Below, one piece after another: positions 33,222 to 64,000 of a stretch of DNA of 64,000 nt. The stretch's first letter is position 1. Each line of letters opens with the position of its first letter. This stretch comes from Nodosilinea sp. E11. GTDB taxonomy: Bacteria > Cyanobacteriota > Cyanobacteriia > Phormidesmidales > Phormidesmidaceae. The notes under the pieces are model-generated. The model was not told the DNA's origin. It made no database searches and saw only the letters and a list, made by a program, of their open reading frames with translations. Location: NCBI RefSeq assembly GCF_032813545.1, contig NZ_CP136520.1, forward strand, positions 1,296,001-1,360,000, written 5' to 3'. The translations under genes and the position numbers were made by a program.

Positions 33222-35465
33222 GTGAGACTGAATCGACGGGCGTTTTTGCAGCAGGCAAGTCTGGCCCTGGGGGCGCTGGGGGTGGGGGGCACGGCCCTGC
33301 TGGCCGGCTCAAACCAGTATCAGCAAGCGTTGGCTAAGCCCGCCCGTCGAAAACTCGCCCTGCTGATTGGCATTAATGCCTACCCCGATCGCGCCCTCGA
33401 TCCTGGGGTGGCTCAAGACGTTGCCCTGCGGGGTTGCCTCACCGATATTGATCTCCAGCGACAGCTATTGGTCCATCGGTTTGGCTTTCAGCCGGTGGAT
33501 GTGGTCACCCTGACTAACCAGGAAGCCACTCGCGCCGGCATTTTAACGGCGATTGACGAACACCTGGTGCAACAAGCCCAGGCCGATGACGTAGTGGTGC
33601 TGCACTTTAGTGGCTACGGCAGCCAGGTGCAGGTGCAGGGGGCGGCGGAGAACAGCTCCCTGCACCTGGCCTGGGTCACCGCAGACAGCCACTTACCCAG
33701 TGAAGACTCTCCGGCTTTGGCGGATCTGCTAGAAGCCGAAGTCGTAGCCCGCCTGGCTCACCTGGCCACGCCCAACCTGACCACCGTGATAGACGCCGGT
33801 AGCCAGGATGCCGGATATTTGCGCTGGGGTAACTCGCGGGTGCGATCGCGCCCCACAGTACCCACCGGCACGTTCGCTGCGCTGGGAGATCCCTCACTGC
33901 CCCTGGGCGATCCCTTGACTCTCCCCTGGCCAGGGCTATTGCTGCGGGCCGCCGATACAGGTCGACTAGTGCTAGAAAGCCAGTGGGAGGGCTTTAGCGC
34001 CGGGGTATTCACCTACGCCCTCACCCAAAGTCTGTGGGCGGGGCCGCCCACCCCATCGACCCAGGCTTTGATCCAGCGGGCCGAGCGATACCTCCAGCGG
34101 TGGGTAGGAGCCGATCAACGGCCAGTAGTGAGCGATCGCCTACCCGCTCGCAGTGGCCCCGGAGTCTATGGCCTTCAGCCGCAGTCAGCAGGGGCTGAAG
34201 GGGTGGTGCTGTCTAGCGGCAGCGATCGCCCTCTGACCCTATGGCTAGGAGGGGTGCCTCCCCAGGTGCTGCGCTATCTCCAGCCCGGGTCTCAGCTAGA
34301 AGTTACCTCTCCGACGGGCCAGACTATCCCCCTGCGCCTAGAGTCGCGGCTGGGACTCAAGAGCACAGCTAAACCCCTTGCATCCGCTAATCTAACCCTG
34401 GCCACCCTAGCTCGACAGCCCGTCTACGAACGGGTGCGGGTGCTGCCTCAAACCATTGATCTGGTGGTGGCCCTCGATAGCCAGCTCAAGCGGGTTGAGC
34501 GGGTTGACGCCACCAGCGCCCTGGCGGGTCTGCCCCTGGTTACAGCCGTGACCGCCGGAGAAAAAGCGGCCGACTGTCTGTTTGGTCGGTTGCCCACCGG
34601 CCCGGCCCCCACCCTTACCGCCGCGTTACCCGGTGCCACGACCGCTGGCCCTAAGCCAGGCATCAACCTGCCTCCTGAGAGCAGCTATGGGCTGTTTGCC
34701 CCCAATCGCACCCTGTTGCCCGGCACAATGCTGGCTAAAGAAGAGGCCGTTAAAACAGCCGTCAACCGGCTGGCCCCCTATCTACAAACCCTGCTAGCCC
34801 TAAAGCTGGTGCGCCTCACCGAAAACCGCGCTTCGTCCCAACTGGCAGTAGCGGCAGTGCTAGAGACCGTGCAGCCTCAGCTTCGCCCCCTGGAGGTACA
34901 GACTACCGAACGTCGTCTTCCTGAGGCCTGGCCCTTGGCAATTCGCCAGGCCCAAAAATCTCTGGCCACTGCTGGCCCCCTACTGCTGCCCCGAGACAGC
35001 CGGATTGGTTACCGCATTGCCAACACTACGGCCCAGGCCCTGCACCTGCTGTGGATCAACTTCAATAGCCGGGGAGAATGCACTGCCCTGGTCAATCTCT
35101 CCGAGGTCAACCCCGAGGAAGACACTGATCAAATCCCAGCCCCTAGGCTGCTGGAGGCAGGACAGCTGTTACCTCAACCCAGGGATGGTGCAGGCTGGGC
35201 CATGCCCGGATCAGCTACCTGGGTTGAGGCTTACCTGATTCTCAGCACCCAGCCCCTCGATCGTTGCCTGGCCGTTCTGAGTGGTGAACCGCCATCCTTA
35301 GATGCGGGCTTTCGCCCTGTCCCTAAGCCTCTAAAGTTAGCCCAGGCGCTCCTCCAAGACCTCAGCCTAGATCCCAACACCGAGGGTAAGTCTGCCGTCC
35401 AAGACGCCTATGCCCTGCATCACGATCGCTGGACAACCCTGAGCTTTCGCTACGACATTGCTTAA
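33222..35465 (+). CDS. Caspase-fold (orthocaspase-like) protein lacking the catalytic His/Cys
   Basis: 747 residues from GTG 33222 (no in-frame ATG nearby). An export signal of Tat-like character (RRAFLQQASLALGALGVGG) precedes a peptidase C14 caspase domain (about 42-320): KLALLIGINAYP, GCLTDIDLQRQLL, then VVVLHFSGYGSQ where the usual SGHG has Tyr132. The expected D-x-C-x-S-G segment reads DAGSQDAG (191-198) with no Cys. Both dyad residues are therefore lost, so peptidase activity is unlikely. A C-terminal region (about 600-720, IGYRIANTTAQALHLLWINF) resembles DUF4384. Probably a secreted binding or scaffold protein (inference). Confidence 0.85.
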   Translation: MRLNRRAFLQQASLALGALGVGGTALLAGSNQYQQALAKPARRKLALLIGINAYPDRALDPGVAQDVALRGCLTDIDLQRQLLVHRFGFQPVDVVTLTNQEATRAGILTAIDEHLVQQAQADDVVVLHFSGYGSQVQVQGAAENSSLHLAWVTADSHLPSEDSPALADLLEAEVVARLAHLATPNLTTVIDAGSQDAGYLRWGNSRVRSRPTVPTGTFAALGDPSLPLGDPLTLPWPGLLLRAADTGRLVLESQWEGFSAGVFTYALTQSLWAGPPTPSTQALIQRAERYLQRWVGADQRPVVSDRLPARSGPGVYGLQPQSAGAEGVVLSSGSDRPLTLWLGGVPPQVLRYLQPGSQLEVTSPTGQTIPLRLESRLGLKSTAKPLASANLTLATLARQPVYERVRVLPQTIDLVVALDSQLKRVERVDATSALAGLPLVTAVTAGEKAADCLFGRLPTGPAPTLTAALPGATTAGPKPGINLPPESSYGLFAPNRTLLPGTMLAKEEAVKTAVNRLAPYLQTLLALKLVRLTENRASSQLAVAAVLETVQPQLRPLEVQTTERRLPEAWPLAIRQAQKSLATAGPLLLPRDSRIGYRIANTTAQALHLLWINFNSRGECTALVNLSEVNPEEDTDQIPAPRLLEAGQLLPQPRDGAGWAMPGSATWVEAYLILSTQPLDRCLAVLSGEPPSLDAGFRPVPKPLKLAQALLQDLSLDPNTEGKSAVQDAYALHHDRWTTLSFRYDIA

Positions 35466-35484: not shown

Positions 35485-36051
35485 CTAAGCTGGGGCGATC
35501 AGCATACCTAGTGCGCCACCAATGGCCAGCCCCAGCAGGCAGGTACCCAGGAGCACCACAGTGATGGTACGGCCTTGATAGCGGCGCAGGAGGCGATCGC
35601 CCAGGGTAGTGGTGACCAGACTACACAGCACCGCCAGCAGCGCCGCCAGCAGACTGTAAAGCGCCACTTCAATCACGGCACGGCCAATGGCTAACTCGTC
35701 GAGGTTGTTGACCCCCAAATGGTTGAGAGCAATAGAAATAGCTACCGCCAGGGCTGTGCCACCCAAGATGCTACCCAAGACCACCAGGTTCGCTGCTAGC
35801 CAACGGAAGCGCTGTAGCGTTTGGGGACCAGCCAGGGCCAAACTCTGAACCAACGCCCCTGCCACCGCCACTAACCAGACCCAGGGAGGGGCCAAAGCCA
35901 CGATAATGACTCCGACGGCGGCGTAGAGCAGCCCGCACAGCAGCCATAGCCCCACAAAAGGTCGCCGCTGAGATGAGGATCGAGCGGGCGGGCGCGATCG
36001 CCGGGCGGGGGCAGGGGCAGAGCGCCGACGGCGCTGACTGGGTGGGGTCAT
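35485..36051 (-). CDS. Membrane protein with basic N-terminal tail
   Basis: 188 residues. The first 30 are Arg/Ser/Pro/Ala-rich and probably disordered. About four or five helices follow (FVGLWLLCGLLYAAVGVIIV, WVWLVAVAGALVQSL, LVVLGSILGGTALAVAI, the Leu-rich pair near 130-185). Family not recognised. It is convergent with the caspase-fold gene with only 19 bases between stops. Confidence 0.7.
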   Translation of the reverse strand: MTPPSQRRRRSAPAPARRSRPPARSSSQRRPFVGLWLLCGLLYAAVGVIIVALAPPWVWLVAVAGALVQSLALAGPQTLQRFRWLAANLVVLGSILGGTALAVAISIALNHLGVNNLDELAIGRAVIEVALYSLLAALLAVLCSLVTTTLGDRLLRRYQGRTITVVLLGTCLLGLAIGGALGMLIAPA

Positions 36052-36165: not shown

Positions 36166-37440
36166 ATGAGCATTCCGTTGGCGGCATTAGTTCAAGGGTT
36201 GTTAGCGGCCTCTAGCCTATTGGTGGGGGCGGTCTTGGGCATTGCCTGGCGACCGGCACGATCGATTACAGCGGCGATCATGGCCTTTGGCAGCGGCACT
36301 CTGCTATCGGCGATCGCCTTTGACATTACGTTACCAGCCTACACCAGCAGCGGCTTTTGGCCTCTGGTAGTGGGGTTTGCCCTGGGGGGCACCCTGTTTA
36401 CGGTGATTGTCACCTACATCGACAACCAGGGGGGCTTTATTCGGCACCCTTCGTCGTCGCGGCGTTTTCTCTATCACCACCGCCAAGACGAGGCCTCGGA
36501 GGTGCTCGATCGCATTGGCCACATTGAGGTGCTCCACAGCCTCTCCCCGGCTGAAATGCAGGCGATTATCCCGCTGCTAAAACCCCTTCAGGTGGAGCCA
36601 GAAACTGTGCTATGTCGGGAGGGTGCCCCCGGTAGCTCAATGTTTTTAATCGTGGACGGCGAAGCCGAAATCTATAAGGGTCAGCAGCGGCTGGCCGCCC
36701 TGGGGGCGGGTGAAATCTTTGGCGAAATGGCGCTGCTAACCGGTGAGGAGCGATCGGCCACGGTGCTGGCTAAAACCTCCATGGAACTCTATGAGCTAGA
36801 CAAGGCTGATTTCGACGCCATGCTCACCTATGCGCCTCAAATCTCTAGCGGATTGAGCCGCATTTTGGCTCGACGACTGCGCGAAACTACCCAGTCAACC
36901 ACCAAGCCCGTTCTAATCGACGACGATCGCTGGCGGCGACAGGTGCTCGACAGCGTAGAAGTTGACATCCCCATTTCCGAACAGCAGTTTAAAGAACTCG
37001 CCCAGAGCTCTGCCCCCCTGGCCATTCTGGTGGGCACCCTGATCGACAACATTCCCGAGGCGCTAGTGATTGGCTTTCACACCGGCCTGGGCCATACCGG
37101 GGCCTCTTTTTTGATGGCGGTGTTTATTTCTAATATTCCCGAGGCAATGTCGAGTTCGATTGGCATGCGCCAGGCCGGTACGTCTGGGGGACGCATTTTG
37201 GCCCTGTGGAGCGGTGCGGTGCTGCTTAGCGGCCTGATGGCGGTGGTCGGTAGCCTGATGGTCAACGTGTTGTCTGAATGGGTGCTAGCGGTGGCCCAAG
37301 CGACGGCTGGGGGGGCCATTCTGGCCATGGTGGCCAGCACAATGATGCCCGAAGCCTACGAAATGGGCGGTGGGTCGATCACGTTTTCAACCATTGCCGG
37401 GTTTCTAGTCAGCTTTTATCTCGCCTCCCTGGCGTTTTAG
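36166..37440 (+). CDS. ZIP-like transporter with inserted cyclic-nucleotide-binding domain
   Basis: 424 residues. N-terminal helices 1-3 (about 5-85) and a C-terminal set of four or five helices (about 275-424) flank a complete cNMP-binding domain (about 112-240). Its phosphate-binding cassette reads GEIFGEMALLTGEERSATV (182-200), with the conserved Glu and Arg196. The membrane part contains DNIPEALVIGFHTG and SNIPEAMSSSIGM, close to the H/DN-x-PE metal-site motifs of ZIP permeases. A metal or solute carrier gated by cAMP/cGMP is the simple reading (inference). Confidence 0.82.
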   Translation: MSIPLAALVQGLLAASSLLVGAVLGIAWRPARSITAAIMAFGSGTLLSAIAFDITLPAYTSSGFWPLVVGFALGGTLFTVIVTYIDNQGGFIRHPSSSRRFLYHHRQDEASEVLDRIGHIEVLHSLSPAEMQAIIPLLKPLQVEPETVLCREGAPGSSMFLIVDGEAEIYKGQQRLAALGAGEIFGEMALLTGEERSATVLAKTSMELYELDKADFDAMLTYAPQISSGLSRILARRLRETTQSTTKPVLIDDDRWRRQVLDSVEVDIPISEQQFKELAQSSAPLAILVGTLIDNIPEALVIGFHTGLGHTGASFLMAVFISNIPEAMSSSIGMRQAGTSGGRILALWSGAVLLSGLMAVVGSLMVNVLSEWVLAVAQATAGGAILAMVASTMMPEAYEMGGGSITFSTIAGFLVSFYLASLAF

Positions 37441-57740: not shown

Positions 57741-58097
57741 TGATTGCTCCCCCTGGTTGCCCGCCGCTTCACCACCCCCCAAGCCTTCGTCTATGGGCGG
57801 AGCACTGCGGCGGAACCTGGTAGATTGTTGAAGGTTGATAGAGCTTGGCCTCTCTAGTTATCCCCAAGCTTGCCTACCCTGCTCGATCTCACCACCGCTA
57901 TAGCCGCAGCAGGGCAAAACCGTGGCTGGCTACCCTCCCCTACATATGGGGTGACCAAATTCTATTGTTTCTCAAACATCACTAGATGTAGACCGGCAGA
58001 TCGGCTAACCTAAGGGGCAGCTTGGGTGCCTAGGCAAGATTGCTCTAGCCCCAGGAATACTCAAAATGATAAAATTGTACTAACGAGCCGCTGCGCC
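57741..58097. other. Intergenic region upstream of dnaE, 357 bp
   Basis: It holds the dnaE promoter. The reverse strand carries no recognisable AIM24 N-terminus. Short open frames without start signals only. Confidence 0.4.
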
Positions 58098-60698
58098 ATG
58101 TCCTTTGTTGGTCTCCATATCCACAGTGCCTACAGTCTGCTCGACGGGGCCAGCCAGCTACCCCAGTTGGTGGAGCGGGCCAAGGAACTGGGTATGCCGG
58201 CGATCGCCCTTACCGACCACGGCGTCATGTATGGCGCGATCGAGCTGATCAAAGTCTGCAAAGGGGCAGGCATTAAGCCGATCATCGGTAACGAGATGTA
58301 CCTGATCAACGGCGATATTTCGCAGCAGCAGCGCCGCCCCCGCTACCATCAGGTGGTGCTGGCCAAAAACACCCAGGGTTACAAGAACCTGGTCAAGCTC
58401 ACCACCATCTCCCACCTGCAAGGCGTTCAGGGCAAAGGCATTTTCTCGCGCCCCTGCATCAACAAAGACCTGCTAGAGCAGTACCACGAAGGGCTGATCG
58501 TCACCAGCGCCTGCCTCGGTGGCGAGGTGCCCCAGGCGATTTTGCAGAAGCGGCCTGACGTGGCCCGCAAGGTGGCCCAGTGGTACAAAGACCTGTTTGG
58601 CGAAGACTACTATCTCGAAATTCAGGATCACGGTTCTCCTGAAGACCGGGTGGTGAATGTGGAGATTCTCAAGATCGCCCGCGAGCTGGACATCAAAGTC
58701 ATCTGCACCAACGACAGCCACTACATTTCTTGCAACGATGTGGAGGCCCACGACGCCCTGCTCTGCATTCAGACCGGCAAGCTGCTGACCGAAGACAAGC
58801 GCCTGCGCTACAGCGGTACCGAGTATGTCAAATCTGCCGATGAAATGCGCCTGCTGTTTCGCGATCACATTGAGCCGGAGGTGATTGAGGAATCGATCGC
58901 CAACACCCTCGAAGTCGCCGAAAAAGTCGAAGAGTACACCGGCATCCTCGGCCAGTCGCGCATTCCCGACTTCCCCATTCCCCCCGAGTTCAACGAAGAC
59001 GCCGGGGCCTACATGGGCCATGTGGCGCGGGAGGGGCTGGTTAAGCGGATGAAGGCGGTCAGCTATGGGGAGATTGAGCAGGAATACCGCGATCGCCTCG
59101 AATACGAAATCGAGATGATGATCCAGATGGGGTTCCCCACCTACTTTCTCGTCGTGTGGGACTACATTCGCTTTGCCCGCGACAACAACATTCCGGTCGG
59201 CCCTGGTCGCGGCTCGGCGGCGGGGTCGCTAGTGGCCTACGCCATGGAAATCACCAACATCGACCCCATCCACCACGGTCTGCTGTTCGAGCGATTCTTG
59301 AACCCCGAACGTAAGTCGATGCCGGATATTGACACCGACTTCTGCATCGATCGCCGCGACGAGGTGATCAAATACGTCACCCGCCGCTACGGCGAAGAAC
59401 GGGTGGCCCAGATCATCACCTTCAACCGTATGACCTCCAAGGCGGTGCTGAAGGATGTGGCGCGGGTGCTCGACATCCCCTACGCCGAGTCGGATCGGAT
59501 GGCGAAGCTGATCCCCGTGGCGCGGGGCAAGCCCACCAAGCTTAAGGTGATGATCTCCGACGACACCCCCGCCCCCGAGTTCAAGGAGAAGTACGACAAC
59601 GACCCCCAAACCCGCCGCTGGCTCGACATGGCCCTGCGGATCGAAGGCACCAACAAGACCTTCGGCATGCACGCCGCCGGGGTGGTGATCTCCAAAGACC
59701 CGCTGGATGAAATTGTGCCCCTCCAGCGCAACAACGACGGCCAGGTGATCACCCAGTACTACATGGAAGATGTGGAAGCCCTGGGCCTCCTCAAGATGGA
59801 CTTCCTGGGCCTGCGCAACCTGACCATGATCCAAAAAACCCTGGAGCTAATTGAGGCCACCCACGGCACCAAAATCGACCCCGACGACCTGCCCATGGAT
59901 GACCCCGCCACCTACAAGCTGCTGGAGCGGGGCGATCTGGGCGGCGTGTTTCAGCTAGAGTCATCCGGCATGCGCCAGATCGTCAAAGATCTCAAACCCT
60001 CGGGTCTCGAAGACATCTCCTCGGTGCTGGCCCTCTACCGACCAGGGCCACTGGATGCGGGGCTGATTCCCAAATTCATCAACCGCAAGCACGGGCGCGA
60101 AAAAATCGACTTTGCTGACGAAATTCTCAAACCCATCCTCAGCGAAACCTACGGCATCATGGTCTACCAGGAGCAGATCATGAAAATTGCCCAGGATATG
60201 GGCGGCTACTCTCTTGGCCAGGCCGACCTGCTGCGGCGGGCCATGGGTAAAAAGAAAATGTCGGAAATGCTCAAGCACCAGGAAAACTTCGTCAATGGTG
60301 CCATGGAGAAAGGCGTTGCCAAAAAAGTAGCCACAGAACTTTGGGACCAGATGGTGAAGTTTGCAGAGTACTGCCTCAGCGCCGACACAGAGTTACTGAC
60401 GCTGGAATACGGCCCCCTTACCATCGGCGAAATTGTCGCCAAACGCATCCCCTGCCATGTGTTCAGTGTCGATGAGCAGGGCTATGTGTATACCCAGCCC
60501 ATTGCCCAATGGCACGATCGCGGCCAGCAAGAGGTGTTTGAATACCACCTCGACGATGGCACCACCCTCCGCGCCACCGCCGACCACCAATTTATGACCG
60601 AGACCGGGGACATGATGGCGATCGACCAAATCTTTCAGCGTGGGCTAGAGTTGAAGCAGGTCGAGCCCCCCTGGCCGAAAGTGCTGCGGTGCGCGTGA
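58098..60698 (+). CDS. dnaE: DNA polymerase III alpha subunit N-terminal part with N-terminal split intein
   Basis: 866 residues from ATG 58098 ([17 protein letters not shown]). PHP domain (about 1-270), then the polymerase palm with the catalytic PDIDTDF. The extein ends KFAEY and the intein starts at Cys759 (60372-60374): [20 protein letters not shown], with TADH as the block B TxxH motif and [17 protein letters not shown] as in other DnaE inteins. The N-intein is 108 residues, slightly longer than usual, ending in [12 protein letters not shown]. The matching intein-C/DnaE-C gene must be elsewhere. The two halves join by trans-splicing. Confidence 0.96.
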
Positions 60699-60699
60699 G

Positions 60700-60998
60700 A
60701 TGTACGACGTTGAGTTTACGCAGGGTGCTGTTGATGATCTGCGATTTCTGAAGAAGAATGAGCAGCAGCAAGTAATTGCTGGCATTGCAAGCCAGCTTTT
60801 GCATGAACCTAATGTCGAGACACGAAACCGTAAGCGCCACGCCTCCACCCCAACGATTTTCCAGAGTGGGAACTGAGACTGGGCAAGTATCGCGTTTTCT
60901 ACGATGTTGAGCCAATTGTAAGAATTGTTAAAGTTGAAGCTATTGACTATAAAGAAGGCAACCAACTATTTATTCGTGGAGAGCCGTACCAGCTATGA
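60700..60998 (+). pseudogene. RelE/ParE-type toxin, frameshifted
   Basis: It starts ATG 60700, one base after the dnaE stop: MYDVEFTQGAVDDLRFLKKN... to NRKRH, then a shift of frame within CACGCCTCCACCCC (about 60840-60853). The continuation reads NDFPEWELRLGKYRVFYDVE...IDYKEGNQLFIRGEPYQL up to a TGA at 60996. In one frame it stops after 58 residues. The two parts together form a complete toxin of about 98 residues. The tail overlaps the antitoxin start as ATGA, the usual layout of a toxin-first operon. Confidence 0.85.
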
Positions 60999-61246
60999 AA
61001 ACTGTCTCTCTGTTGGATGTATTGGCTCCCCTAGCAGAGTTATTAGAGCAGGCTCAAGAAGAAGCCCTAATTTTGCAAACTCCTGATGGCAAAGAGTTTG
61101 TCCTGGCTGCCCTCAACAACTTTGCCCACGAAGTAGAGCTAACTCGACAAAATCCAGCATTAATGGCGCTTCTTGATCGGCATGGACAAGAAGAATCGAC
61201 AGTTAAGTTATTAAGCTTAAAAGCTCAGCTTGGCTTGGATTGCTGA
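60995..61246 (+). CDS. Antitoxin of the type II pair
   Basis: 83 residues, MKTVSLLDVLAPLAELLEQA..., acidic, with a short beta-helix N-terminus and a QTPDGKEFVLAALNNFAHEVE block as in cyanobacterial antitoxins paired with RelE/ParE toxins. Start overlaps the toxin stop by four bases, so translation would be coupled to the toxin tail. Because the toxin is frameshifted, the antitoxin is probably a remnant that may still neutralise related toxins. Confidence 0.8.
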   Translation: MKTVSLLDVLAPLAELLEQAQEEALILQTPDGKEFVLAALNNFAHEVELTRQNPALMALLDRHGQEESTVKLLSLKAQLGLDC

Positions 61247-61266
61247 TTGCCTGACACATCTCTATT

Positions 61267-61299
61267 GTAGATTGGGTGCAGCGTAGCGAAACCCAACGC
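61267..61299. repeat. Dispersed repeat GATTGGGTGCAGCGTAGCG
   Basis: ATTGGGT...ACCCAA arms surround GCAGCGTAGCGAA. This GTTGGGTTTCGCTACGC-type palindrome is widespread in cyanobacterial spacers. Here it lies between the antitoxin and xisI. Confidence 0.6.
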
Positions 61300-61338
61300 T
61301 CGCCGAGGATTTAAGGCTGAAGATGAAGGAAATGAGCA

Positions 61339-61680
61339 GTGGATAAACTGACCGAATATCCTCAGATTATCAAGAAGATTTTGACTGAACATGCGGAAAT
61401 TTGCGATCGCTACCCCAATCCCAACATCAAAAAGCTTTTGATTCTTGATGAGGAAAGAGGTCATTACATTTGGATGACCCTGGGCTGGCAAAAGGGAGAA
61501 CGAATTGCTGGCATGACTATTTATGCCCGCGTTCTTGACGGCAAATTTTGGATTGAGGAGGACTTGACCGAAGAAGGCGTCGCTACAGATTTAATGCGAA
61601 TGGGAGTCGCTAAGGAAGGTATTGTTTTAGCTTTCCATGAACCCAACATGCGGCAGTACACAGACTTCGCTGTAGCCTAA
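61339..61680 (+). CDS. xisI: XisI-family protein (orphan)
   Basis: 113 residues from GTG 61339 (GAAGGA upstream). IWMTLGWQKGERIAGMTIYA and DGKFWIEEDLTEEGVATDLM are XisI hallmarks, and the length matches. XisI acts with XisH in controlling excision of the fdxN element in Anabaena, and most copies in other cyanobacteria are of unknown use. The usual xisH partner is absent upstream: only the antitoxin and a repeat are there. Whether it is functional alone is unclear. Confidence 0.87.
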   Translation: MDKLTEYPQIIKKILTEHAEICDRYPNPNIKKLLILDEERGHYIWMTLGWQKGERIAGMTIYARVLDGKFWIEEDLTEEGVATDLMRMGVAKEGIVLAFHEPNMRQYTDFAVA

Positions 61681-61879
61681 TCAATTTCAGGTAAAAACAG
61701 AAAGTAAGTAAACCTTTCAATTTGGGGGCAATGGTCAAAAAATAGTTAAATAGAGCAAGATAAGGAAGCTGAAATATCCGTCCTTAATCTCCATTAACAC
61801 TTGAGGCAGTTATGGCTGCCCCGTTAGCGGGTAAGGCCAAGGTAAACCCAGCTAAACTCGAAGCGGTATTGTTACGTCT

Positions 61880-62005
61880 ATAGCGATCGCCAGAACCGTT
61901 AGGACATTTCCTGTAGCCCTAGCGCAATGGCTATACGCCGTTGCGCTGCTCCAGTTTTTAACCGGGACAGTGACCATTGCCCTAAGCGCAACGGCCACCG
62001 CTATA
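61880..62005. mobile_element. TATAGC-ended MITE-like element, copy 2
   Basis: The ends TATAGCGATCGCC and GGCCACCGCTATA are 13-bp imperfect inverted repeats (11 matches). TATAGC and GTTAGGACAT are 13 bases apart, as in 8311-8414. An internal GGCTATA at 61930-61936 makes the first 57 bases a possible unit by itself. Confidence 0.55.
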
Positions 62006-62140
62006 TAAGCAACACTGTCAGCAGGCCAGTGGAACCTTGAGCGCCTAACCACTGTCGGATGTCGCGAGTTCTAAAAACCTTGATGCGCTCATGCTCTAGG
62101 CAATTGTCTAGGACTGTTTTTCCTATCAGACTCAGGAGAG

Positions 62141-62249
62141 TTATACGAAATCCGAGTTGGGAAACCCCAATTCATAATCAGAAACCCTGTAGGGACGTAG
62201 CATGCTATGCCCCTACGAATCGGGGGTATGCAGTTAGGATTTGGTCTTA
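62141..62249. mobile_element. 109-bp MITE family 1, copy E
   Basis: The ends TTATACGAAATCC and GGATTTGGTCTTA form a 13-bp imperfect TIR (10 matches). Core GTAGGGACGTAGCATGC / TATGCCCCTAC, then GAATCGGGGGTATGCAG. One of the best conserved copies. Confidence 0.82.
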
Positions 62250-62387
62250 GTTGTTATTCCAGCGAGAAATTTGTAAGGTGACGGCGGGGGGGCAAGGGTG
62301 TGCGTCATCATTTTGTCGGCACCTCTAAGGGCTCAACAGGCCCGTTTGCGAAACTAAGCGCCGACTAACCATTGTCCTTGCTGCACG

Positions 62388-62612
62388 ATGGAGAATCGCT
62401 TCAAAGAACAGCAAATTGATTTATTCAGTGACCGCACCTCAACCGGCATGGTGTCGGGTGTTGCTGAGTTGAGGCAGAAATTTCGTAAGGGCAAACGGCC
62501 CTTTGCCCTTACGAGAGACGTTGCATTTTGACTCCCCCCTTTACCCAGCAGTCCCTTTCGCGACAGATGGCTGCGGTTGTGGTTCGTGGCGTTGCCCTAT
62601 GGCTTGCTTAGC
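62388..62612 (+). pseudogene. IS1380-like transposase remnant, interrupted
   Basis: MENRFKEQQIDLFSDRTST (62388-62444) and RWLRLWFVALPYGLLS (62565-62612) are consecutive C-terminal pieces of IS1380/IS4-type transposases, which read ENRIKE..LFADRTS..NQLRLWFSALAY. Between them is foreign sequence with a 30-bp hairpin and an in-frame stop. N-terminus and C-terminus are gone. Confidence 0.65.
62484..62513. repeat. 30-bp hairpin inserted in the transposase remnant
   Basis: Arms CGTAAGGGCAAA (62484-62495) and TTTGCCCTTACG (62502-62513) with a six-base loop. The sort of GTAAGGGCAAA palindrome seen dispersed in cyanobacteria. It appears to have been inserted into the fragment. Confidence 0.75.
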
Positions 62613-62806
62613 TGTAAAACATCTTTTGCCATGGAAGGATATGAAAAAATGTTGATTTCCTGTCATAAAAGTCCAGAGCACTTCTTTTCTCTGAAAAAGC
62701 ATGGTATAAGATTTTCAAGAGAAGTACTGCAAACAAGTACTTCTCTATGGTTCTCTTATTAAAGAATAAATAGCTTTCTTGAGCCAAAAGCCAGTTTATC
62801 AAGCCG

Positions 62807-62838
62807 TTTCACTTCGCTTGCTAGCAAGCGAAGTGAAA
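62807..62838. repeat. 32-bp perfect palindrome
   Basis: TTTCACTTCGCTTGC and its complement around a central TAGC step give a loopless perfect palindrome. AT-rich flanks; the next gene starts 274 bases later. A terminator, operator or element core are all possible. Confidence 0.8.
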
Positions 62839-63111
62839 AATGTTTGATTAGTTTGGGCATTGTCAGCCAAGGAACTGGAAGATTGAGCAGGCTAAAGCTT
62901 TTGTGTTGTTTCCTGTCGGCATGTATCTCGAAAAGCGAAAAATTCTCATTGTAGGCTTATAAAACAGATCAGCAAGACTCTCCTTACTCTTGTATCAGGA
63001 AGTTTGGCAATCATGATTAAGGAAATAACTCTTCTGGGGCTAAAGAAAAGCCTGAAAAGCCTGGCGCTTGAAATGAGAACTAAGTAATAAGCATCTGCCT
63101 GGAGGGTTTGC

Positions 63112-64000
63112 ATGACTACTTTTATGTCTGGCGATCGTGATGAGTTTTCAAATATCCATTCAACCGGCTCTGGTACTGATGACGAGCTGTTTTCATTAAA
63201 TTCAGGAGTCATTACTTCTGCATTTGAAGGTATTCGGAGTAGTCTTCATCAGTTAGCGTTATCATCAAATGCTTTTGAAGAGCTCAATCGCATTTTTGAA
63301 ATTACTAATCTTAATGCAGCAGCAACTCGTTTAGAAGGCTGGGCTGAAGGGGTATTTTCAGATCTGCCTGATATTTCAGTATTGAGTGATGAGGTCTTGG
63401 GGGGTGCTTTAGGCGCTTATTCTGCAGATCGAAACACTATTTATTTGGCAGAATCTCTGATGCACCCTGACAGTTTGACAGGGCTCACTAGGGTGCTGCT
63501 AGAGGAGTATGGACATGCCTTAGATCAGCAGTTTAATTCCGGTGGAGATACTGCTGGTGACGAAGGTGAGTTATTTAGCATGACTGTTTTAGGTGAAGCA
63601 ATCAATGCAGAAGACTTGGGCAGGATACGAGCTGAGAACGACTGGGGGCTATTAAATCTCGATGGCACGTCCCTACTAGTAGAATTTGACAATTCCCTGA
63701 GCACCGCTGTTAATCTTGGCACCTTGAGCGGCAGTCGATCGTTGTCTGGGTTTGTTGGCAGTACCGATCCTAACGATTACTACCGCTTTAATTTGACTGC
63801 ACCAGGTGATTTCAGACTAACTCTCAACGGCCTAAGTGCAGATGCTGATGTGCAATTGCTTAATAGCTCTGGCAGCGTGATCCAGAGCTCTACAGCCAGT
63901 GGCACTACTCCAGAACTCATTACCAGAAACTTAAGTGCTGGCACCTATTACGCAAGAGTTTTTCCATTTAGTGGAGACACCAACTATAACTTGAGTTTGA
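63112..64000 (+). CDS. Large exoprotein with LEExGH domain and PPC repeat (partial, C-terminus outside window)
   Basis: 296 codons visible and still open at the window edge. ATG 63112 has GGAGGG five bases upstream. Residues about 35-190 form a domain seen at the N-terminus of cyanobacterial repeat exoproteins, with VLLEEYGHALDQQFN (128-142) and GDEGELFSMTVLGEAI. A pre-peptidase C-terminal-like domain begins about 195 (AVNLGTLSGS...GTYYARVFPFSGDTNYNLSL). No signal peptide is present, so type I secretion is likely (inference). Codon use is more AT-rich than elsewhere in the window, suggesting a separate history. Confidence 0.8.
   Translation, partial: MTTFMSGDRDEFSNIHSTGSGTDDELFSLNSGVITSAFEGIRSSLHQLALSSNAFEELNRIFEITNLNAAATRLEGWAEGVFSDLPDISVLSDEVLGGALGAYSADRNTIYLAESLMHPDSLTGLTRVLLEEYGHALDQQFNSGGDTAGDEGELFSMTVLGEAINAEDLGRIRAENDWGLLNLDGTSLLVEFDNSLSTAVNLGTLSGSRSLSGFVGSTDPNDYYRFNLTAPGDFRLTLNGLSADADVQLLNSSGSVIQSSTASGTTPELITRNLSAGTYYARVFPFSGDTNYNLSL

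Follow-up and report, generated by a model that had tools for sequence, protein, structure and literature searches.

Does the gene at positions 36166..37440 (+ strand) encode a metal transporter with a cyclic-nucleotide sensor built into its membrane fold? The gene lies in the window, the 64,000-nucleotide stretch of Nodosilinea sp. E11 (contig NZ_CP136520.1) analyzed here. A reading made from the sequence alone had proposed a cyclic-nucleotide domain between the helices of a ZIP-like transporter, in its large cytoplasmic loop, and direct gating of metal flux by cAMP or cGMP. The open reading frame is single and unbroken, starts with ATG, codes for 424 residues (the coordinates include the stop codon) and has full-length homologues. 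Pfam cNMP_binding (PF00027) matched residues 142–220 with an E value of 5.6e-20 and a score of 71.6 bits against a cut-off of 27.5, which places the domain in the cyclic-nucleotide-binding domain (CNBD) family by profile.

An AlphaFold2 model was built from a 43-row alignment (mean pLDDT 74.7, pTM 0.57) and has eight membrane helices in a 3+5 arrangement around the CNBD. TM1–TM3 (residues 3–87; 36172..36426, +) were predicted at 3–27, 32–62 and 65–87, and the CNBD follows at residues ~110–241 (36493..36888, +), as delimited by PF00027, the model and fold matches. A linker (residues 242–282; 36889..37011, +) leads to TM4–TM8 (residues 283–421; 37012..37428, +), with helices at 283–307, 313–336, 341–365, 371–398 and 403–421. 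Residues 238–281 were poorly predicted (pLDDT <50), and the CNBD and membrane part were positioned relative to each other without confidence. The arrangement of MloK1 or SthK, a K+ channel pore followed by a C-terminal CNBD, was absent; the CNBD is mid-protein, with ZIP-fold helices on both sides. Judged from the model and the comparison with the Bordetella bronchiseptica transporter BbZIP, the CNBD sits, as had been proposed, in the TM3–TM4 loop, which is cytoplasmic in BbZIP (PMC10256678).

The identity of the membrane part was assigned by fold comparison of the model (VIA-align 2) and by a profile search with CNBD-less relatives. BbZIP entries took ranks 1–7 in the fold comparison (Z 20.7–21.4, 196–219 residues, rmsd 2.4–3.0 Å), the top match having a Z of 21.4 over 205 residues at 2.5 Å. 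This alignment started at model residue 1 or 2 and was confined to residues 1–400, so that helices 1–7 were included and helix 8, although predicted, fell outside. Matches to the other domain, the CNBD, ranked below BbZIP at Z ≤20.6, less than one Z unit under the top BbZIP match, and the best 50 of 1054 Foldseek matches against the PDB (E ≤10) were CNBD proteins only, with no ZIP among them. A profile built from seven relatives without a CNBD (four from cyanobacteria, two from Deinococcus and one from Haladaptatus), to which TM4–TM8 can be matched by sequence, found BbZIP among PDB sequences at E 1.3e-10 over profile positions 5–241. Both Deinococcus relatives (L069 and L070) are annotated as "ZIP family zinc transporter" and the Haladaptatus protein (L071) as a hypothetical protein.

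Pfam Zip (PF02535) scored the fusion protein at 23 bits, under the family cut-off of 35.1 bits, and this match was discarded as ZIP evidence since it aligned residues 351–408 to profile positions 10–71, out of order. Seven relatives were scanned singly; L014 (44.4) and L016 (40.1) passed the cut-off and L015, L021, L069, L009 and L060 failed it, and in all seven the match was collinear and joined the second half of the protein to the second half of the profile. Each of the 43 rows of alignment A1 had some match to Zip at E ≤1, the best at 1.6e-11. By predicted fold and through its CNBD-less relatives, the membrane part is a ZIP, and we placed the fusion protein on a divergent branch of the ZIP superfamily, without naming it a zinc transporter. 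The sequence-only reading stood to fall if the helices belonged to another transporter family, and as judged by sequence and fold this did not happen; PF00027, the fold match and the intact frame bear out its CNBD between the helices of a ZIP-like transporter.

The transport site of the fusion differs from that of canonical ZIPs. HNxPEG, the TM4/TM5 motif of an ancestral ZIP sequence (preprint PMC13192868), was not present on either helix. TM4 carries D294-N-I-P-E298-A (37045..37062, +), aligned to HNLPEG of BbZIP, and TM5 carries S322-N-I-P-E326-A (37129..37146, +), aligned to QDVPEG; Pro and Glu are kept and His is replaced. In the profile alignment and the columns of A1, His177-Asn178-x-x-Glu181 of BbZIP became Asp294-Asn295-x-x-Glu298, and Gln207-Asp208-x-x-Glu211 became Ser322-Asn323-x-x-Glu326. 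The M2-site residue Glu240 corresponds to Ser355 (Gly in 3 of the 38 one-CNBD rows, Thr in L014, and Ser or Cys in CNBD-less rows), the cytoplasmic exit residues His275/Glu276 to Ser391/Thr392, and Ser106 to Asp53 on TM2, a position that is Asp or Glu in 43/43 rows. D294, I296, P297, E298, N323, P325 and E326 were invariant in all 43 rows. Four of these rows are CNBD-less, and on the simplest view the site is therefore older than the insertion of the CNBD.

The CNBD-less cyanobacterial proteins (L015, L016, L021 and L027; 30–41% identity to the fusion protein) belong, together with the Deinococcus and Haladaptatus relatives, to a branch of 241–259 residues with the motifs DGIPES and (S/A)N(I/V/L)P(E/Q). 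Members of this branch share the TM4 Asp and Glu and the TM5 Asn with the fusion, whereas they lack the CNBD, have a short TM3–TM4 loop and carry Gly in place of Asn295. The Haladaptatus protein has Gln at the TM5 Glu position.

With these residues replaced, the substrate is uncertain, and, given the absence of the His ligand and Glu240, the site may be weakly active or act differently. The host genome also encodes a second, canonical ZIP with HNFPEG, QNIPEG and IEP (L006/L080, C7:1656222-1656653), which makes zinc import by the fusion unsafe to assume and provides a useful control for transport comparisons. Oxygen ligands suit Mn2+, Fe2+ and Mg2+ by general coordination chemistry, and the predicted oxygen-ligand site (D53, D294, N295, E298, N323 and E326) would fit any of these ions at least as well as Zn2+. 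The replaced His and Glu240, the altered exit residues and the separate canonical ZIP would all suit a protein that transports nothing, a nucleotide receptor or transceptor in which the ZIP-fold part anchors the protein in the membrane or senses metal and the CNBD detects or relays a signal. We regard such a receptor as unlikely, since the acidic and Asn residues of TM4 and TM5 are held in every row of A1 and the D53 position is always acidic, which suggests that ion handling is still under selection; ion transport by the fusion protein is the likely function.

The second component of the proposal, a full phosphate-binding cassette, was found in residues 185–200 (FGEMALLTGEERSATV; 36718..36765, +). 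The ribose-binding Gly/Glu and phosphate-binding Arg that define such a cassette (PMC6052114) are G186, E187 and R196 in the fusion protein. G186, E187, R196, S197 and A198 were invariant in 38/38 one-CNBD rows of A1, and F185 was replaced by Ile in a single row. The cassette Arg was kept in 39/39 one-CNBD rows when the window's own locus was included, and in 9/9 more distant one-CNBD proteins with three other family codes that were fetched after the pattern had been seen. By fold, the domain matched those of HCN, SthK and MloK1 (Z ~19–20, VIA-align 2), and cAMP- and cGMP-bound domains were among the matches. The best PDB sequence matches were PKG and PKA chains with several domains (E as low as 4.7e-34), followed by MloK1 domains at ~1e-18. 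The host genome has nine matches to class III nucleotide cyclases, each above the Pfam cut-off. The CNBD looks competent for nucleotide, and as far as sequence and fold indicate, the anticipated failing, a pocket unable to bind, did not materialize, its key residues being kept; binding of cAMP or cGMP is very likely. The sequence gives no confident reading of a preference between the two.

The relatives include a form in which this pocket is altered. Seven proteins of 607–610 amino acids (L014, L120-L122 and L135-L137) share the membrane part and insertion point with the fusion protein, whereas they carry two CNBDs and His in place of the cassette Arg. His was found in 8/8 domains of four of these proteins; the other three, in which the second CNBD alone was read at the cassette Arg position, have it there as well. 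This suggests that the CNBD-ZIP architecture can persist without a canonical pocket, because the two-CNBD form has lost the Arg and keeps its membrane part. A structural or dimerizing role has been proposed for the cNMP-like domains of CNNM metal transporters. The His-bearing pockets, together with weak Pfam matches to the CNNM CNBH family in 16/43 rows (best E 2.4e-5), raise the question of whether the CNBD studied here is likewise structural or dimerizing and binds no nucleotide. We consider this rather improbable, because a structural domain would not need the Gly, Glu, Arg, Ser and Ala that the one-CNBD clade holds in every row, and because the PDB matches include MloK1 domains whose structures hold cAMP or cGMP.

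A pocket that binds something else (a further cyclic nucleotide, for example cUMP or cCMP, or a nucleoside) and regulates transport through it is very improbable. Nucleosides are the ligands of trypanosomatid PKA (PMC10959531), and a PycTIR domain with bound cUMP was among the fold matches, but the Arg that is replaced in the trypanosomatid protein is kept here and the host has many class III cyclases. The idea that the fusion is an artefact, either two genes joined by an assembly error or a chance CNBD-like stretch, can be dismissed because other assemblies carry the same architecture at 33 loci, because 50 of 388 genomes have it as judged by match span, and because it forms one clade in two trees.

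The 33 loci were found in genome_contigs by peptide patterns, whose reach is limited to close relatives; 31 are full-length, two (L066 and L067) are in broken frames, and all have cyanobacterial titles. Alignment A1 omits the two broken loci, L001 (the window itself) and L008. Fusion genomes span at least five family codes (f1, f6, f15, f26 and f53), and by fusion protein the nearest named relatives are filamentous cyanobacteria, Nodosilinea among them; the host genome is 6.1 Mb. These samples overlap, since L001 is the window's locus, some of the genomes searched probably duplicate assemblies behind genome_contigs loci, and many rows are closely related.

Within the window's family, 42 of 63 genomes matched at E ≤1e-30 (30/45 of those of good quality) and 21 had no match. 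Two of the 42 (G305 and G310) had the two-CNBD form only and two (G331 and G337) broken copies only. The genus of G014, a separate one, had matches in 4/5 genomes. Across the class, 74 of the 388 genomes carry this ZIP branch at E ≤1e-25: 50 with one CNBD, seven with two, 18 bare and two with fragments only, three genomes carrying two kinds. This tally was sorted by match span and frame length, with sequences fetched for all seven two-CNBD genomes and the CNBD read singly in part of the 50 one-CNBD genomes, and it leans to the window's own family, which supplied 40 of the 74 positive genomes. Some bare matches were listed with a stop (G099, G185 and G473). Across 292 genomes of the phylum, matches of >250 bits comprised eight one-CNBD, one two-CNBD and five bare forms, two of the bare ones with a stop. 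Among plasmid records, 127 matched (20 listed) and none covered 80% of the query in one place; the two matching loci in viral_contigs were both CNBD-less. In L123 and in G159 (contig C21:34608-35286), the same transporter branch was seen in separate-frame fragments, which are either decayed copies or sequencing breaks.

Trees were built from the membrane part with 32 and 56 chosen rows, and insert columns were removed by a 70%-filled rule; columns for residues 114–121 and most of the linker end (272–282) escaped this filter, as checked on the 32-row tree only. All CNBD-bearing rows grouped together at 100/99 with 32 rows and at 94/83, not starred, with 56 rows. The one-CNBD clade was supported at 99/99 and 100/99, respectively, and the two-CNBD clade at 100/99 and 100/100. 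For the 56-row tree, the tool flagged the join of the one-CNBD and two-CNBD clades as a meeting of long branches; a single origin is therefore likely, not certain. One insertion followed by one duplication would be the simplest history. Bare, one-domain and two-domain relatives form a comparative series with no sensor, an intact pocket and altered pockets, respectively.

A ZIP-fold transporter of divalent cations with a built-in cAMP/cGMP sensor is, on balance, the best explanation of these observations, and regulation of transport by the nucleotide is reasonably probable, with its sign left free. The sequence-only reading went further in proposing direct gating of metal flux. The ZIP fold, the placement of the CNBD and the conserved cassette speak for it; the protein is not a canonical ZIP and its substrate is uncertain. 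The proposal is supported in part, and it may reasonably be hypothesized that nucleotide gates the flux of metal.

BbZIP is reported to work as an elevator, in which α1/4/5/6 move against α2/3/7/8 (PMC9873690), and its TM3–TM4 loop to act as a zinc sensor that inhibits uptake by keeping the transporter in an inhibited, inward-facing state (PMC10256678). The membrane part of the fusion is probably an elevator of the same type, in which TM1, 4, 5 and 6 would move with the ion relative to TM2, 3, 7 and 8. Placed in the TM3–TM4 loop, the CNBD would link a fixed helix to a moving one, as a strap with its N-terminal side on TM3 and its C-terminal side on TM4. We hypothesize that nucleotide bound at R196/E187 would rearrange the C-terminal helix (224–241), that the strap would tighten or loosen, and that the rate of the elevator would change as a result; nucleotide would thus replace metal as the regulatory signal at this loop. 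That a CNBD can modulate a solute carrier is known from SLC9C1, where the effect is lost with R1053Q, and the same source cautions that for several CNBD proteins cyclic nucleotides do no gating (PMC6052114). A second messenger acting at a BbZIP-type regulatory loop would join cyclic-nucleotide signalling to metal supply in one cyanobacterial protein, and an insertion between the fixed and moving halves would be a natural test case for a regulatory domain that brakes or releases an elevator.

More tentatively, with the odds somewhat against it in full, the fusion may stand for a class of bacterial carriers in which a CNBD between the scaffold and transport domains makes uptake of a non-zinc ion, through an oxygen-ligand site, dependent on cAMP or cGMP. 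Such a class would have arisen once in cyanobacteria, and in one branch the domain would later have been duplicated and the canonical pocket lost, with the sensor drifting to another ligand or becoming a fixed brake.

The fusion was compared with known systems that share one of its parts. BbZIP, of the GufA subfamily, has in common the ZIP fold, the Pro and Glu of the TM4/TM5 motifs and the TM3–TM4 loop as a site of regulation, but its loop is ~20 residues long (146–166) with a His-based zinc sensor, whereas that of the fusion holds a whole CNBD, and its HNLPEG, QDVPEG and E240 are DNIPEA, SNIPEA and S355 in the fusion. The BbZIP motif DXXXPHXH at TM3 and the loop (PMC10256678) was not found by eye in the fusion translation. 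The bacterial cyclic-nucleotide-gated channels MloK1 and SthK are alike in CNBD sequence and fold (31–34% identity to MloK1 domains), but they are K+ channels with a C-terminal CNBD. In the sperm Na+/H+ exchanger SLC9C1 the CNBD comes after the exchanger part, whereas in the fusion it is inside the transporter. As predicted for the fusion, SLC9C1 is a carrier with a CNBD and not a channel; it is modulated by cAMP through this domain, belongs to another transporter family, has a voltage sensor as partner and is an animal protein (PMC6052114).

CNBDs fused to MFS transporters are mentioned in a review, which in the part concerned gives no mechanism (PMC10710835); these too are bacterial transporters with a CNBD, but of another family. 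Among the matches listed from the openly licensed literature, none described a CNBD-ZIP protein, in agreement with the sequence-only reading, which knew of no characterized example; the parts are known, and their combination and placement appear new within the literature searched. A table in PMC3516471 lists Synechocystis slr0593 as "cAMP binding membrane protein", which may be an earlier name for a CNBD-ZIP protein.

The surroundings of the gene were also examined. Upstream are a caspase-domain gene (Pfam Peptidase_C14; 33222-35465, +), whose product seems, by eye, to have a signal sequence at its N terminus, and a divergent membrane gene (35485-36051, −), which has five helices in its model (pLDDT 73.7) and gave no convincing family or PDB match. 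Downstream lie DUF7219, a gene of the SLOG family and an alpha/beta hydrolase, and no metal or nucleotide link was found for these five neighbors. A homologue of the divergent gene was located within ~0.8 kb upstream of the fusion in 31/33 genome_contigs loci, the exceptions being L064 and L056 (the latter with only ~600 bases upstream). It was considered as a dedicated partner and rejected, because it occurs in 57/63 family genomes against 42/63 with a fusion match, and because a profile found none in 16 loci of other families (L126-L141), some of them cut by contig ends. The gene is general in the family, so its linkage to the fusion was read as inherited gene order.

No CRP-type operator (TGTGA-N6-TCACA) was found between 36051 and 36166, and in the whole window this pattern occurred 14 times at ≤2 mismatches, against 18.5 expected. 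Further downstream, a large open reading frame (58026-60698, +) resembles an N-terminal portion of DNA polymerase III alpha, and its C-terminal stretch, from CLSADTELL onward, has the look of the N-half of a DnaE split intein. The end of the window (60001-64000) has a G+C content of 0.47, compared with 0.54–0.63 elsewhere in the window.
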